From Deltaproteobacteria bacterium RIFOXYD12_FULL_56_24 (GTDB lineage: Bacteria; Desulfobacterota; Desulfobulbia; Desulfobulbales; Desulfurivibrionaceae): a stretch of DNA of 52,738 nucleotides. The translations under genes and the position numbers were made by a program. How positions within the stretch are numbered: the first letter of the stretch is position 1; each line of letters opens with the position of its first letter. The stretch lies in assembly GCA_001799285.1 (NCBI GenBank), contig MGTD01000014.1, positions 1-52,738 of the forward strand, read 5' to 3'. The notes under the pieces are model-generated. The model made no database searches. It saw only the letters and a list, made by a program, of their open reading frames with translations, and was not told where the DNA came from. Shown here in pieces: positions 23,844-43,967 of this stretch.

Positions 23844-25289
23844 ATGACTTTTATTGTAACCAATCACGGGGTAAGCCCACAAAGGTCAAATAACCACGGA
23901 ACAAGCGGTCACAGGGTGCCGCAGGTTGCGGCAAGCGGGATGGCGATGCGTACTTTTGTACGTGAGCCGGACCGATCGCCGCAAGATGTGGTGCCCTGTG
24001 ATCGCTTACCTTTCATTTTTTGCCGCCCATACCTTACTGTCTGCATATTGGCTCTGACCCTGCCCCTATGCCTCGGCCAACGCCTTTGCTTGGCCGCGGA
24101 AACGCCCCGTCCGGACGCCAGGATCATCGAGGAGCAGAAAAAAATCCAACGTCTGAAAAAAGGCATCGAGGACCAGAGATTCAGAGTGCAGGCTACCAGA
24201 AAACAGGAAAGCTCCCTGCTAACCGAGTTGGAACGGCTGAACGGACATATCCAGAATGAAGGCGACAAGCTCATCCATCTAAATAAGAAACTAAGCAGAC
24301 ACGAGGAGCTCTTGACTGCCAAACAGGACGAGGTTACCAAGGCAAAAGAGGCCAAGGTACAGGCCGAACCCCATATTAAAAAACGGCTCAGTTCCTTTTA
24401 CCGGATGGGGAGGATCGGCGTAATGAATGTTGTCTTTTCCACCAGCGAGCTGCCTGATCTTCTTGCCTTTCGCGAGTATTTCAACATCTTGATCAACCGA
24501 GACCTCAGCGTTATTCGCCAATATCGGGAAAAAGTCGAGGCCCTTGAAAAAACGCGACTCAGCCTCAACCAGGAAAAACAAGCCCTGGTTGAAACCATCA
24601 CCAAGATCAAAAGCCAGGAAGAGCAGCTGGCCGCCACTCGAGAGGAAAGAATCCGCTTGCTGCAAAAAGTTAAAACCGAGAAAAAACTTTACCAGATGGC
24701 ACTTACCGAACTCGAAGGAGCGGCAAACAGGCTGACCAATACCCTTGAGCAACTCAAGGCCGAAGCAGCCAAAGCCCGCGAGAAGGAAGTCTCCCCGAAG
24801 GAGTTACGCCCTGCCGCTGCTAAGAAATCCCCCCAGGACAATCTCGGTTTTGCCAAACAGAAAGGCCGTCTCACTCCGCCGGCGTTGGGCACGGTTACAA
24901 CCCTGTTCGGGAAGAACGTCCAAAAGGAATTCGGCATCGCCACCTTTGCCAACGGCATTGACATAAAGACAATGCCGGGCACCAAAGTCACCGCCATTTA
25001 CGATGGCAAGGTGATCTATGCCAAATTCCTGCGCGGCTATGGCAACCTGCTTATCATTGACCATGGCCAGCAATATCTAAGTATTGTTTCCCGCGCCGCG
25101 AAGTTTTTCAAAGAGGAAGGCGACACAGTTGCCAGGGATGAAGTGGTTGGAATAATGAGCGAGCAGGAAGGCTTGCTGGGAGAAGGGCTCCATTTCGAGA
25201 TCCGCCATGGAACAACGCCGGAAAACCCTTTAAAATGGGTGAACAACGCCAAGCTCACCATCAAGACCACCATAAAAAAGCCCCGCTGA
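23844..25289 (+). CDS. envC: EnvC-like murein hydrolase activator, N-terminus interrupted by an in-frame MITE
   Basis: 481 aa. A long coiled coil (residues ~95-310, IEEQKKIQRLKKGIEDQRFR ...) is followed by a LytM domain (residues ~345-470). The zinc ligands look degenerate: FANGIDIK where active enzymes have HxxxD, and GEGLHFEIRHG lacking the first His of HxH. This fits a non-catalytic EnvC-type activator working with FtsEX. Codons 5-58 are the 154-bp element plus one 8-bp target repeat, inserted in frame after MTFI. Removing them restores MTFIFCRPYLTVCILALTLP, a normal signal peptide. As it stands the hydrophobic core starts about 60 residues in. Internal ATGs in the element (GMAMRT) or a GTG could be used instead. 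Confidence 0.85.
   Translation: MTFIVTNHGVSPQRSNNHGTSGHRVPQVAASGMAMRTFVREPDRSPQDVVPCDRLPFIFCRPYLTVCILALTLPLCLGQRLCLAAETPRPDARIIEEQKKIQRLKKGIEDQRFRVQATRKQESSLLTELERLNGHIQNEGDKLIHLNKKLSRHEELLTAKQDEVTKAKEAKVQAEPHIKKRLSSFYRMGRIGVMNVVFSTSELPDLLAFREYFNILINRDLSVIRQYREKVEALEKTRLSLNQEKQALVETITKIKSQEEQLAATREERIRLLQKVKTEKKLYQMALTELEGAANRLTNTLEQLKAEAAKAREKEVSPKELRPAAAKKSPQDNLGFAKQKGRLTPPALGTVTTLFGKNVQKEFGIATFANGIDIKTMPGTKVTAIYDGKVIYAKFLRGYGNLLIIDHGQQYLSIVSRAAKFFKEEGDTVARDEVVGIMSEQEGLLGEGLHFEIRHGTTPENPLKWVNNAKLTIKTTIKKPR
23856..24009 (+). mobile_element. 154-bp MITE, copy B, in frame inside envC
   Basis: Complete copy. Ends are GTAACCAATCACGGGG and (reverse) GTAAGCGATCACAGGG. Flanking direct repeats are CTTTTATT (23848-23855) and CTTTCATT (24010-24017), 8 bp with one difference. 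The right two thirds (from 23903) fold as one long hairpin: AAGCGGTCACAGGGTGCCGCA pairs with the right end, then TTGCGGC with GCCGCAA, with GCGTAC-tttt-GTACGT at the tip. Confidence 0.93.
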
Positions 25290-27521: not shown

Positions 27522-27675
27522 GCAAGCGATCACAGGGCACCACATCTTGCGGCGATCGGTCCGGCTCACGGACAAAAGTACGCATCGCCGTCCCGCTTGC
27601 CGCAACCTGCGGCACCCTGTGACCGCTTATTCTGTGGTTATTTGAACTCTTGGGGCATACCCCGTGATCCGTTAC
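27522..27675 (-). mobile_element. 154-bp MITE, copy C, between fumarase alpha and beta
   Basis: Complete copy in reverse orientation: GCAAGCGATCACAGGG at 27522 and CCCCGTGATCCGTTAC ending 27675. It is bounded by a perfect 8-bp direct repeat CAGTCTTC (27514-27521 and 27676-27683). It lies within the probable alpha-beta transcript. Confidence 0.95.
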
Positions 27676-38948: not shown

Positions 38949-40247
38949 ATGACCCCTTTTCTGCTGGTTTATCTGTCGGTCTATACCCTTCTCCACTACT
39001 ATGCTTTCCGCAAGATCAGGGCCGCCTTTCTGCCCGGCAAAAAGATCAGGCTCGGCATCACCCTGTTCATGGCAGCCATGATCGCTGCGCCGATCATGGT
39101 CCGGATGGCCGAGAGAGCCGGGATTGAAACAGGCGCCAGGTTCTGGGCCTATGCAAGCTTCAGCTGGATGGGGCTGCTTTTCCTTTTCCTGACCCTGACC
39201 GGAACGGTTGATCTGATCCGCCTTGCCATCCTGGCTGCGGAAAAAATCCGGCAACAAAAATTTACCCAGGCAAGGGTGTCGCCGCGGCAGCTGTTTGCCG
39301 CACAGGCGATAGTGGTGGTTGCCCTTTACGGATACGGCCTGTTCGAAGCAACGGATATCCGCCAGGAACATATTGAGATTATCAGCCCAAAAATCACCGA
39401 AAAAACCGGCAGGATACGTATTGCCCAGATCTCGGATGTGCATTTGGGACTCCTTGTCCGGGAGAGCAGGCTCAAGAAGATTCTTGCCGAAATCCGCAAG
39501 GCAAAACCCGATATTCTGGTGTCCACCGGCGATCTGGTTGATGGCCAACCCAGTCATCTCAATAGAGAAGCCAGGTTACTGGCGGCGCTCAATCCGCCGC
39601 TGGGCAAGATCGCCATCACCGGCAACCATGAGTTCTACGCCGGCCTGCAGGTTGCCTCGGCTTTTATGGAAACTTCCGGATTCACTCTTCTGCGCCAACA
39701 GGGAATGGCGGTCGGCGGCATCAATTTTGTAGGGGTTGACGACCCTGTAGTAAAAAACTTTGCCCGGAAAACATCAGGGGCGGAACACGAAATTCTTTCT
39801 GCCCAAGCCAAGGAAAACTTCACGGTTCTGCTCAAGCACCGACCCGAGATCAACCCGTACAGTTCGAGGCTTTTTGATCTCCAGCTTTCCGGCCACACCC
39901 ACAAGGGCCAGATATTCCCCTTCAACCTGTTCACCTGGTTTTTTTATCCCCAGCGGGCCGGTCAGCTCACCAGCCTGAACGTAGCCGATCACGGGAAAAC
40001 CCCACAAAGGTCAAATAACCACGGAACAAGCGGTCACATGGTGCCGCAGCTTGCGGCAAGCGGGACGGCGATGCGTACTTTTGTACGTGATCCGGACCGA
40101 TCGCCGCGAGATGTGGTGCCATGTGATCGCTTACCCCTGAACAGCGGTTTTCTCTACCTGAGCCGAGGCACCGGTACATGGGGGCCACCCATCCGCTTCC
40201 TGGCGCCGCCGGAGGTTACCATCATCGATCTGTTGCATGGGGAATGA
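38949..40247 (+). CDS. Membrane metallophosphoesterase with an in-frame MITE-derived insertion
   Basis: 432 aa. Three or four N-terminal membrane segments (residues ~1-20, 35-55, 70-92, 112-130) precede a calcineurin-like phosphoesterase domain: RIAQISDVHLGLL (Asp, His), DILVSTGDLVDGQP, IAITGNHEFYAG (Asn, His), FTVLLKHRP and LQLSGHTHKGQIFP. The C-terminal motif FLYLSRGTGTWGPPIRFLAP is typical of YkuE-like enzymes. Residues ~345-398 are translated from the 154-bp element plus one target repeat, placed between the metal-binding GHTHKGQ block and the YLSRGTGTWG motif. Without it the protein would be 378 aa, a usual length. All metal ligands are present, so activity may survive if the 54-residue loop is tolerated. 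Confidence 0.88.
   Translation: MTPFLLVYLSVYTLLHYYAFRKIRAAFLPGKKIRLGITLFMAAMIAAPIMVRMAERAGIETGARFWAYASFSWMGLLFLFLTLTGTVDLIRLAILAAEKIRQQKFTQARVSPRQLFAAQAIVVVALYGYGLFEATDIRQEHIEIISPKITEKTGRIRIAQISDVHLGLLVRESRLKKILAEIRKAKPDILVSTGDLVDGQPSHLNREARLLAALNPPLGKIAITGNHEFYAGLQVASAFMETSGFTLLRQQGMAVGGINFVGVDDPVVKNFARKTSGAEHEILSAQAKENFTVLLKHRPEINPYSSRLFDLQLSGHTHKGQIFPFNLFTWFFYPQRAGQLTSLNVADHGKTPQRSNNHGTSGHMVPQLAASGTAMRTFVRDPDRSPRDVVPCDRLPLNSGFLYLSRGTGTWGPPIRFLAPPEVTIIDLLHGE
39981..40134 (+). mobile_element. 154-bp MITE, copy E, in frame inside the metallophosphoesterase
   Basis: Complete copy: GTAGCCGATCACGGG at the left, GTGATCGCTTAC at the right. It is flanked by GCCTGAAC (39973-39980) and CCCTGAAC (40135-40142), 8 bp with one difference. 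Read in the same frame as copy B, with no stop: HGKTPQRSNNHGTSGH here, HGVSPQRSNNHGTSGH in envC. Confidence 0.93.
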
Positions 40248-41754: not shown

Positions 41755-41908
41755 GTAAATGATCACGGGGCAACCTCACAAAGGCCAAATAACCAAGGAA
41801 CAAGCGGTCGCAGGGTGCCGCAGATTGCGGCAAGCGGGACGGCGATGCGTACTTTTGTACGTGAGCCGGACCGATCGTCGCAAGATGTGGTGCCCTGTGA
41901 TCGCTTAC
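41755..41908 (+). mobile_element. 154-bp MITE, copy F, upstream of the selenoprotein gene
   Basis: Complete copy: GTAAATGATCACGGGG to GTGATCGCTTAC, bounded by a perfect 8-bp direct repeat TTGCTCCC (41747-41754 and 41909-41916). It ends 28 bases before the ATG of the [2Fe-2S] candidate selenoprotein, so any promoter further upstream must read through its long hairpin. Confidence 0.96.
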
Positions 41909-41936
41909 TTGCTCCCCCCTATCCCGGAAGGTTTTC

Positions 41937-42161
41937 ATGCCCCGTCTGATCTGTTACTGTTTTGGCCATACCGATGAAGATCTGCGCCGGGATGTCCGGG
42001 AACACGGCCGTTCGCTGATTATGGAGCGCATTGTCTCGACGAAAAAAGCGGGCCAATGCCGATGCGCGGAGAAAAACCCTGCCGGGCGCTGATGCCTGGC
42101 CGAGGTCCGCCAGGTGGTGGACGCAGCGTTGGAAGACACTTCCGCCAAGGAAAATCGCTGA
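41937..42161 (+). CDS. BFD/CopZ-like [2Fe-2S] protein, candidate selenoprotein (TGA at codon 52)
   Basis: 74 aa if TGA 42090-42092 is read as selenocysteine. The start has a GGAAGG site. It begins MPRLICYCFGHTDEDLRRDV, with a CxC pair at residues 6 and 8, then HGRSLIMERI, KKAGQCRCAEKNPAGR (second CxC at 41 and 43), U52, CLAEVRQVVDAALED and a TGA stop at 42159-42161. This is the pattern of BFD-like [2Fe-2S] domains found in CopZ-type metallochaperones, whose corresponding end usually reads NPxGxCCLG; here the first Cys of CC is TGA. Coding continues in frame beyond the TGA with family-like sequence. The final stop overlaps the tauE start (TGATG), and the tauE ribosome site AAGGA is inside the extension. 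A SECIS-like hairpin follows the TGA. It lacks the N-terminal zinc domain of full CopZ. Function is probably redox or metal delivery linked to the permease. Confidence 0.8.
42105..42122 (+). promoter_or_regulatory. SECIS-like hairpin downstream of TGA 42090
   Basis: GTCCGCC (42105-42111) pairs with GGTGGAC (42116-42122), 7 bp including one G-U, around an AGGT loop. The GGT begins 21 bases after the TGA. Bacterial SECIS elements are short stem-loops about 16-37 bases after the UGA with G/U in the apical loop; the E. coli fdhF loop is AGGUCU. A competing hairpin CCTGGC...GCCAGG also overlaps. Confidence 0.65.
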
Positions 42162-43111
42162 TGTATTTCCCTGTTGCCGATCTCGAGGTCAGCCCGCTGG
42201 TCCCGCCGCTGGTTGCTTTTGCCATCTCTTTTTTCACCTCCATGGGCGGGGTGAGCGGGGCCTTTCTGCTCCTGCCCTTTCAGGTCAGCGTCCTCGGCTT
42301 CACCAGTCCGGCGGTCAGCTCCACCAACCAGCTGTTCAATATCGTCGCCATTCCCAGCGGCGTATATCGCTACCTCAAGGAAGGGCGGATGCTCTGGCCC
42401 CTGACCTGGGTGGTGATCATCGGTACCCTGCCAGGGGTGCTGGTCGGGGCCATCGTCCGAATCAAATACCTGCCCGACCCCAAAAACTTCAAGCTCTTTG
42501 CCGGGCTGGTTCTCCTGTATATGGGCGGCAGATTATTAAATGATCTGGCCTTCCCAAAAAAGACGAACGGACCCACGACCGAGGAACGGTTTCATCAGCG
42601 GGGCAAAAAACAGCCCCGGACAACCGGCAGCGAAGCCGCCTTCTGCGAGCATCTGGCCTGCGTCACGGTCCGGCAATGGACCCCAACCCGGATCGTCTAC
42701 GATTTTTACGGGGAAACCTTCACCGTCAACGCAGTAGGCCTCATGGCCTTAAGCCTCGTGGTCGGCATGGTGGGCGGGGTGTACGGCATCGGCGGCGGGG
42801 CGATCATCGCCCCGTTTCTCGTCAGCTTCTTTGGGATGCCGGTCTATGCCGTGGCCGGAGCGTCCCTGATGGGAACCTTCGTCACCTCGGTAGCCGGGGT
42901 GGCCTTTTACCAGATCCTGGCCCCCTACTACCCCGGCATGGTCATCGCCCCGGACTGGCTGCTGGGTTTTCTCTTCGGGATCGGCGGCTTCGCGGGCATG
43001 TACTGCGGGGCGCGGCTGCAAAAATTCGTGCCGGCCAAGTTCATCAAATGGATCCTGGTGGTCTGCCTGCTGTTCACGGCAGGCAAGTATATCTGGTCTT
43101 TCCTCTTTTAG
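42161..43111 (+). CDS. TauE/SafE family permease
   Basis: 316 aa from the ATG at 42161, which has AAGGA 9 bases upstream and overlaps the preceding stop. A longer ORF start at 42056 is out of frame with the selenoprotein and should be dropped. About eight membrane segments: LVAFAISFFTSMGGVSGAFL, VVIIGTLPGVLVGAIVRI, LMALSLVVGMVGGVYGIGGG, LMGTFVTSVAGVAFYQILAP, WLLGFLFGIGGFAGMYCGAR and WILVVCLLFTAGKYIWSFLF. A ~60-residue soluble loop sits in the middle. The family exports sulfite, organosulfonates or other anions. Translational coupling to the [2Fe-2S] protein suggests a shared substrate or redox step. Converges on the next gene with a 19-bp gap. Confidence 0.9.
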   Translation: MYFPVADLEVSPLVPPLVAFAISFFTSMGGVSGAFLLLPFQVSVLGFTSPAVSSTNQLFNIVAIPSGVYRYLKEGRMLWPLTWVVIIGTLPGVLVGAIVRIKYLPDPKNFKLFAGLVLLYMGGRLLNDLAFPKKTNGPTTEERFHQRGKKQPRTTGSEAAFCEHLACVTVRQWTPTRIVYDFYGETFTVNAVGLMALSLVVGMVGGVYGIGGGAIIAPFLVSFFGMPVYAVAGASLMGTFVTSVAGVAFYQILAPYYPGMVIAPDWLLGFLFGIGGFAGMYCGARLQKFVPAKFIKWILVVCLLFTAGKYIWSFLF

Positions 43112-43130: not shown

Positions 43131-43967
43131 TTAGACGGAAAAAATCAGGCGATTCTGCCAGTTTACCATCTCAGGTACGCCCCCAGCAGGCTGCTCTGCC
43201 ATCCCCTCAAGCAGACGAAGACTGGCAATCCCATGCCAGGAAGAGTCAAGAAAAGGGGCGGCTCTCTGGCTCCGGCCAAAGCCGCCTCTGCCGGTCTGGC
43301 AGCTCATGACAAATGCTCTGGCGCTTTCCAAATCAACGGGCCTGGCGCCCAGAAGGCTCAGGGCCGCCAGCGCGGCATGGCAGTTCTCAATGAACGAGGT
43401 GGTCCCAGGGAAAAAGCCGAAGCCGCCATCACCATTCTGCGAGCGCTGAAGCCAGGCAAGCAGCTCCCCGGCGTCCGCAACCGGTTGGCCAGCCATCCCT
43501 TTCACGAAGAGATACCTCGCCGCATCTTCCACCGCGCAAGTGGCAGGCAGCAGCAAAGAGCGCCCGGAGTCCCGATAATCCGGCTCCTCCCCGAGAATCT
43601 CCCGGAAAATCCTGCTCACATAATAACCGGCGGCAAGGGAAGTGTCCCGGGCCAAACGGGCAACGAGATGGGCGCGCACCCGCTCCCCAGCCAAGGCCAG
43701 TCCGCAGACCCGGCAGGTAAGCAGCAGGCGGAAGGTGGTCTCGATCCCCAGCCAGGGCACAGCCAACATCCGGGCGAGATATTCGGCCAGGGCAGGCTCT
43801 GTTTGCGGGGTAGGCACCTCTTCGCCAAGCACCAGCCGAATGGCCACGGCCTGAAAGGTGTCCTGGATGGTGGCGGGCAGCCGCGGCGTGGCGCCATAGC
43901 CGCCCGTGTCCTTGCGTCGCTTGAGTACGAATTCCAAGAGTGCGTCATAATCAACCTGACGTACCAT
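43131..43967 (-). CDS. Prenyltransferase/squalene-cyclase-fold repeat protein
   Basis: 278 aa. Three alpha-alpha barrel repeats with the DGGFG-type turn: LKRRKDTGGYGATPRLPATI, LLAWLQRSQNGDGGFGFFPG and FVMSCQTGRGGFGRSQRAAP. This is the signature of protein prenyltransferase beta subunits and terpene cyclases. It is short for either enzyme, lacks a DxDD motif, and the Zn ligands of prenyltransferases are not obvious. Bacterial proteins of this type are of unknown function. The start has a GGAGGGGG site. It may be cotranscribed with nothing else here, since DUF190 ends 32 bases upstream. Confidence 0.75.
   Translation of the reverse strand: MVRQVDYDALLEFVLKRRKDTGGYGATPRLPATIQDTFQAVAIRLVLGEEVPTPQTEPALAEYLARMLAVPWLGIETTFRLLLTCRVCGLALAGERVRAHLVARLARDTSLAAGYYVSRIFREILGEEPDYRDSGRSLLLPATCAVEDAARYLFVKGMAGQPVADAGELLAWLQRSQNGDGGFGFFPGTTSFIENCHAALAALSLLGARPVDLESARAFVMSCQTGRGGFGRSQRAAPFLDSSWHGIASLRLLEGMAEQPAGGVPEMVNWQNRLIFSV

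Follow-up and report, generated by a model that had tools for sequence, protein, structure and literature searches.

A predicted selenocysteine-containing BFD/CopZ-like [2Fe-2S] protein encoded next to a TauE/SafE-type permease gene in Desulfobulbales

We identified in a 52,738-nucleotide stretch of DNA from Deltaproteobacteria bacterium RIFOXYD12_FULL_56_24 (hereafter, the window) a gene on the forward strand (41937-42161) for a stand-alone, 74-residue BFD/CopZ-like [2Fe-2S] domain with a predicted selenocysteine (Sec) at residue 52. Our preferred reading, to which we assign a probability of about 0.75, is that the product is a cytosolic selenoprotein with the [2Fe-2S] fold of BFD and the CopZ N-terminal region, and that it acts with a membrane permease. 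A first-pass annotation had proposed the gene as a candidate selenoprotein, a proposal now supported by the presence of the decoding machinery in the genome, by homologs that continue past the UGA and by a SECIS hairpin with covariation.

Domain architecture and candidate cluster ligands

The gene is preceded by a Shine-Dalgarno-like site, GGAAGG (41926-41931), read directly from the sequence 5 nt 5' of the ATG, and its homologs carry GGAGG or GGAGGA at the same spacing. Translated with TGA as U, 41937-42161 yields MPRLICYCFGHTDEDLRRDVREHGRSLIMERIVSTKKAGQCRCAEKNPAGRUCLAEVRQVVDAALEDTSAKENR, with five residues ahead of the first CxC and 21 beyond the UC pair. It carries CYC near the N-terminus, CRC at residues 41-43, NPAGR, U52-C53 and a tail that the fold model predicts to be helical. 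The in-frame UGA (42090-42092) lies in the GRUC motif (G50-R51-U52-C53), matching GxUC, and is followed by 22 further codons before a second TGA (42159-42161), which is the actual stop. Thus, the reading frame first annotated here, with a good ribosome site, a CxC...CxC...NPxGR pattern running into TGA and a read-through to a later stop, held up in each of these respects.

Several lines of evidence make a BFD-like [2Fe-2S] fold very probable. The only Pfam match of the product was to Fer2_BFD (E 7.6e-4), at 20.2 bits and below the cut-off of 26, and the Cys-form model NF047645 (CopZ_Nterm_CC) matched it with 55 bits (E 9.5e-15). A fold model built from 35 Sec-type sequences, with C substituted for U, had a pLDDT of 88.8, and its best structural match was Pseudomonas aeruginosa Bfd (Z 5.5-5.9 over 52-53 residues, rmsd 2.1-2.4 A); the next match, an unrelated structure, had a Z of 4.2. 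Bfd shares the fold and the CxC start with the window protein. Bfd ends, however, in CxxC, where the window protein has an insert and ends in UC, so that the Bfd ligand set (CxC...CxxC) is replaced by an invariant CxC...CxC...UC; no link to bacterioferritin was noticed. Sequence comparison found a single relative of solved structure, the CopZ of Archaeoglobus fulgidus (AfCopZ, 2hu9; E 5e-4), which shares CYC...C...NPxGRCC and is, with NF047645, the closest Cys relative. The window protein corresponds to its [2Fe-2S] part only and lacks both the N-terminal (zinc) domain and the HMA copper domain that characterize CopZ as a copper chaperone.

Six chalcogen residues are invariant (C6, C8, C41, C43, U52 and C53), where four would suffice for a [2Fe-2S] cluster. 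In the alignment to 2hu9, C6, C8, C43, U52 and C53 fall on C75, C77, C109, C118 and C119 (residue numbers as counted along this alignment), and C41, an extra Cys, has no counterpart. We favor C6, C8, C43 and C53 as the cluster ligands, because C53 and the LAEV that follows resemble the last ligand and subsequent helix of Bfd-type domains. This assignment would leave U52 and C41 uncoordinated, close to the cluster. The first-pass annotation suggested instead that a Sec ligand could alter the cluster or its redox chemistry; in this reading, Sec52 would itself be one of the four ligands and tune the potential or the stability of the cluster. The invariance of U52 is consistent with this suggestion, as is its alignment with the first residue of the C118-C119 pair of AfCopZ, either of which could ligate. 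Weighing against it are the Bfd-type pattern around C53, the two surplus chalcogens and the fact that, in a second described form of the family, Sec is the other member of the pair. We therefore regard a ligating Sec52 as a serious possibility but not the probable one.

Most of the Cys-containing relatives have a different architecture. Scanning named genomes with a pattern that specified C at the Sec position, and could thus return Cys forms only, identified 80 relatives in Nitrospira, Acidobacteria, Methanoperedens, Neomarinimicrobiota, Planctomycetota and other groups, all with CC by construction. The residues left free in the pattern were nonetheless conserved, with CxC in 80/80 and C41 in 79/80. 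These relatives from other phyla place the UGA at the first Cys of the CC pair, as had been proposed. Most of them are longer, with an N-terminal part positioned where NF047645 has one, whereas the Sec forms close to that of the window have no part other than the [2Fe-2S] domain.

Gene neighborhood and a proposed permease link

The selenoprotein gene is followed on the same strand by tauE (42161-43111), a TauE/SafE-type permease gene (PF01925, E 2.7e-37) whose start overlaps the selenoprotein stop by one base (TGATG). The last base of the stop is also the first of the permease start codon, so that a ribosome site serving tauE must fall within the extension that follows the UGA, in agreement with the earlier placement of such a site there. 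The same arrangement, with tauE directly downstream and on the same strand, is found in 13 of the 14 loci of the genus and in five of the six loci of a second genus from another family of the order. The permeases of these two genera are 79-100% identical to the TauE of the window; at 66-69% identity, TauE-type permeases also follow the selenoprotein in loci L203, L206, L208, L215 and L216. A third family has tauE close downstream.

Other transport genes adjoin the selenoprotein elsewhere. At nine loci representing four families (f91, f69, f3 and f113), an ArsP_1 permease gene is located directly upstream on the same strand, and several of these loci carry a low-molecular-weight ArsC gene before and an ArsE-type thioredoxin-like protein gene after; in most, at least one of the two is close by. 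This ArsC is an arsenate reductase of the thioredoxin type. The same-strand order ArsP-Sec-TauE-Trx recurs among the loci, and in some (L022, L028, L032, L034, L035, L037 and also L020) a chromate transporter gene is located upstream at a distance of a few hundred bases. By association, these neighbors suggest a shared theme, the transport and redox processing of oxyanions of sulfur, arsenic and chromium, and make it reasonably likely that the selenoprotein shares a pathway with transport of the TauE/ArsP type. The link is not universal, as neither TauE nor ArsP adjoins the gene in many relatives, and many have none of the neighbors listed here. Near the Cys forms we saw no TauE, ArsP, ArsC or chromate-related genes, the only such neighbor being a thioredoxin in three of them.

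The product could alternatively be a plain electron-transfer ferredoxin, comparable to Bfd in its service to bacterioferritin, with the permease genes as merely co-regulated neighbors. That Bfd is the nearest solved fold and that so many relatives lack an adjoining permease gene both fit such a role. Yet an electron carrier has no need for the invariant extra C41/U52 pair, nor does simple co-regulation sit well with the recurrence of the ArsP-Sec-TauE-Trx order, and we consider the plain ferredoxin unlikely.

Other features were noted around the gene pair. A gene for a prenyltransferase-toroid-like protein (43131-43967, minus strand), a relative of which matches PF00432, adjoins the pair at 15 of the 60 loci, other families included. 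Just upstream of the selenoprotein gene is a copy (41795-41910) of an interspersed repeat of about 112 bases that forms one long hairpin (z -5.4). The window has six copies (at 41795-41910, 64, 23898-24009, 27524-27632, 38846 and 40023-40134), and the genome carries the repeat in at least about 40 places at 94-100% identity (best 40 of 236 candidates scored). Beside the selenoprotein gene of one relative (L020, 156-422) is a short ORF that by eye resembles an IS200/REP-associated tyrosine transposase; a transposase of this type is a possible agent for such repeats. A PADLOC search returned no match.

Decoding of the in-frame UGA

The UGA at 42090-42092 is almost certainly decoded as Sec, a prediction that draws on the gene content of the source genome and on comparison of homologs. 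The genome (G000; 3.04 Mb, 95% complete) encodes selA (609 bits), selB (359 bits), selD (386 bits) and a tRNA-Sec with anticodon TCA (70 bits), all above their curated cut-offs, so that the search for selA, selB, selC and selD recommended in the first-pass annotation recovered the full set. The selD gene (L233, G000:C7:155886-156809) contains an in-frame TGA of its own, and the selenophosphate synthetase of this organism is probably itself a selenoprotein. The co-occurrence of selB with the gene across genomes adds little, because almost every genome of the phylum has selB (372 of 395, or 94%, the same share as in the order); 18 of the 42 genomes with Cys forms also passed the selB cut-off. 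Five metagenome-assembled genomes (MAGs) with the TGA form gave no selB match (84-94% complete, candidates scored in part). A tRNA-Sec was found in two of the five, and the other three (G118, G090 and G146) had a match to neither among the candidates scored. We tentatively attribute these absences to incompleteness or partial scoring.

The protein was matched in 119 of the 194 genomes of the same order, with a TGA inside nearly all strong matches. As a fair test of the residue at this position, we took 90 loci of the order and searched them with a motif that permitted C or U at the pair: all 89 loci that gave a motif match read U-C and none read CC. (A separate alignment of 89 homologs used a pattern that required U, and its U is by construction.) Four more distant homologs were likewise U-C. 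Of the 395 genomes sampled across the phylum, 60 had a match (E 1e-8); 58 of these contained the in-frame TGA and two did not. The recommended search for U or C at this position thus returned only Sec forms among the motif-matched loci of the order, and the TGA form in nearly all matching genomes of the phylum. One relative (L079) has the motif GCUC (GCUCL), in which a Cys directly ahead of the Sec makes a C-U-C triplet.

The stretch after the UGA is conserved across homologs as C, L, A, D/E, V, R, Q/R, V and V, which bears out the earlier impression that the extension keeps family-like residues. Between the UGA and the hairpin described below, variation at third codon positions reached 0.55 per codon pair, against 0.18 and 0.13 at the first and second positions; inside the hairpin it fell to 0.24. 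Both alternative frames are interrupted within 45 nt, one in 64 and the other in 37 of the 89 sequences. This pattern of variation, together with the stops in the other frames, indicates that the region after the UGA is translated in the Sec frame. A true stop at the UGA, giving a 51-residue protein whose downstream conservation stems from the tauE leader or from an overlapping frame, is consequently very improbable. An overlapping frame is indeed open into tauE in the window (42056-43111), but the identical extension is conserved in relatives without tauE, no homolog read ends at the TGA, and the Cys homologs run on through the equivalent position.

The context of the UGA also includes a hairpin at 42105-42122 (GUCCGCC-AGGU-GGUGGAC), which has 7 bp and the loop AGGU and begins 12 nt downstream of the UGA. 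Bacterial SECIS elements have a GU in the apical loop at about 11 nt from the UGA. The hairpin of the window agrees with them in spacing and in loop. Among 88 distinct sequences, standard pairs occupy 95% of the hairpin pair cells, compared to 33-66% when one side is slid out of register. Synonymous shuffling of the codons, repeated 500 times under the codon usage of the family itself, lowered the share to 65% (sd 1.4, maximum 69%). Complete stems fell from 60 observed to two in the shuffles, and loops with GGU, of which 75 were observed, to 41. The pair 42107-42120 shows a compensatory change, being C-G in 55 sequences and U-A in 27. The pairing therefore exceeds what coding constraint imposes. 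The isolated hairpin folds at -11.0 kcal/mol, although it is visible only through the alignment and not in single-sequence folding of the 56 nt after the UGA. That fold proposed an alternative stem (z 0.05), which we rejected; its best registers keep 62-82% of the pair cells, compared to the 95% of the SECIS. An Rfam search gave no match at the gathering threshold. A sequencing error, a pseudogene or the reading of UGA as a different amino acid can be dismissed as extremely improbable, given that 89 homologs from many assemblies share the identical TGA, that TGA also terminates this ORF and that both tRNA-Sec and SECIS are present.

Relationship to described families and implications

The first-pass annotation knew of no selenocysteine form of this [2Fe-2S] domain, but such a form is already described. 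Bacterial selenoprotein lists include a "(2Fe-2S)-binding protein (copper chaperone CopZ family) form 1" (cd10141) (PMC9312934, 2022; PMC13188914, 2026), for which the 2026 review gives the motif GxUC (PMC13188914). The window protein shares with form 1, as the lists describe it (example WP_245779778.1), the domain family, the motif and a Sec in place of the first Cys of the CC pair; it is a member of a listed family and not a new kind of selenoprotein. The review texts, as far as they were covered, describe neither the SECIS nor the operon of form 1. Listed beside it is form 2 (Csac_0668), with a CU motif (PMC9312934, PMC13188914), which NCBIfam names as the Sec form NF045877 (Csac_0668 / CopZ_Nterm_CU). 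This is also a BFD/CopZ-domain selenoprotein, but it is longer (a 161-position model) and has its Sec at the second position, the reverse of the U-C order of the window protein, which scored 35.5 bits against it, far under the curated cut-off of 190, and thus falls outside that model. Both reviews credit these forms to Zhang and Gladyshev (2008), in the main text of which (PMC2398784) the terms CopZ, copper chaperone, 2Fe-2S and BFD are all absent.

The literature we examined contained no description of the tauE-overlap or ArsP operon setting of the gene. A search for selenoproteins associated with TauE or BFD-like proteins found none in a literature covered in part, and the operon may already be described. 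The 2026 review does report that, of the predicted selenoproteins that are transporter subunits or associated proteins, most are implicated in metal or metalloid resistance, in a passage that does not mention the CopZ-family form (PMC13188914).

The preferred reading of a permease-associated selenoprotein would operate as follows. SelA, SelB, SelD and tRNA-Sec very probably decode the UGA under the direction of the SECIS hairpin, and C6, C8, C43 and C53 would ligate the [2Fe-2S] cluster in the manner of Bfd and CopZ. Beside the cluster, U52, possibly with C41, would present a reactive selenolate able to bind a soft metal(loid) or to use the electron of the cluster to reduce a substrate, either a thiol or an oxyanion. 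The permease partner would be TauE in the window, and ArsP plus TauE in the arsenic-type operons found elsewhere. That the selenolate acts on a metalloid or sulfur substrate is a tentative proposal. More speculative still, and in our opinion doubtful, is that the stand-alone Sec form serves as the dedicated partner of TauE/ArsP-type permeases, reducing or capturing arsenic or sulfur species beside the cluster and passing them to the exporter, as part of a detoxification module not yet described.

The interest of the family centers on its operon setting and on the role of Sec at or beside the [2Fe-2S] cluster. Its genes are common in this order, yet standard gene callers truncate them at the UGA, as anticipated from the sequence of the window; with a defined SECIS and an invariant set of six residues, they become easy to annotate. 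The product is, furthermore, a small, testable protein with a selenolate predicted at or beside the cluster. Should the operon link prove functional, it would add a selenium-dependent step to the handling of arsenic, sulfite or chromate.
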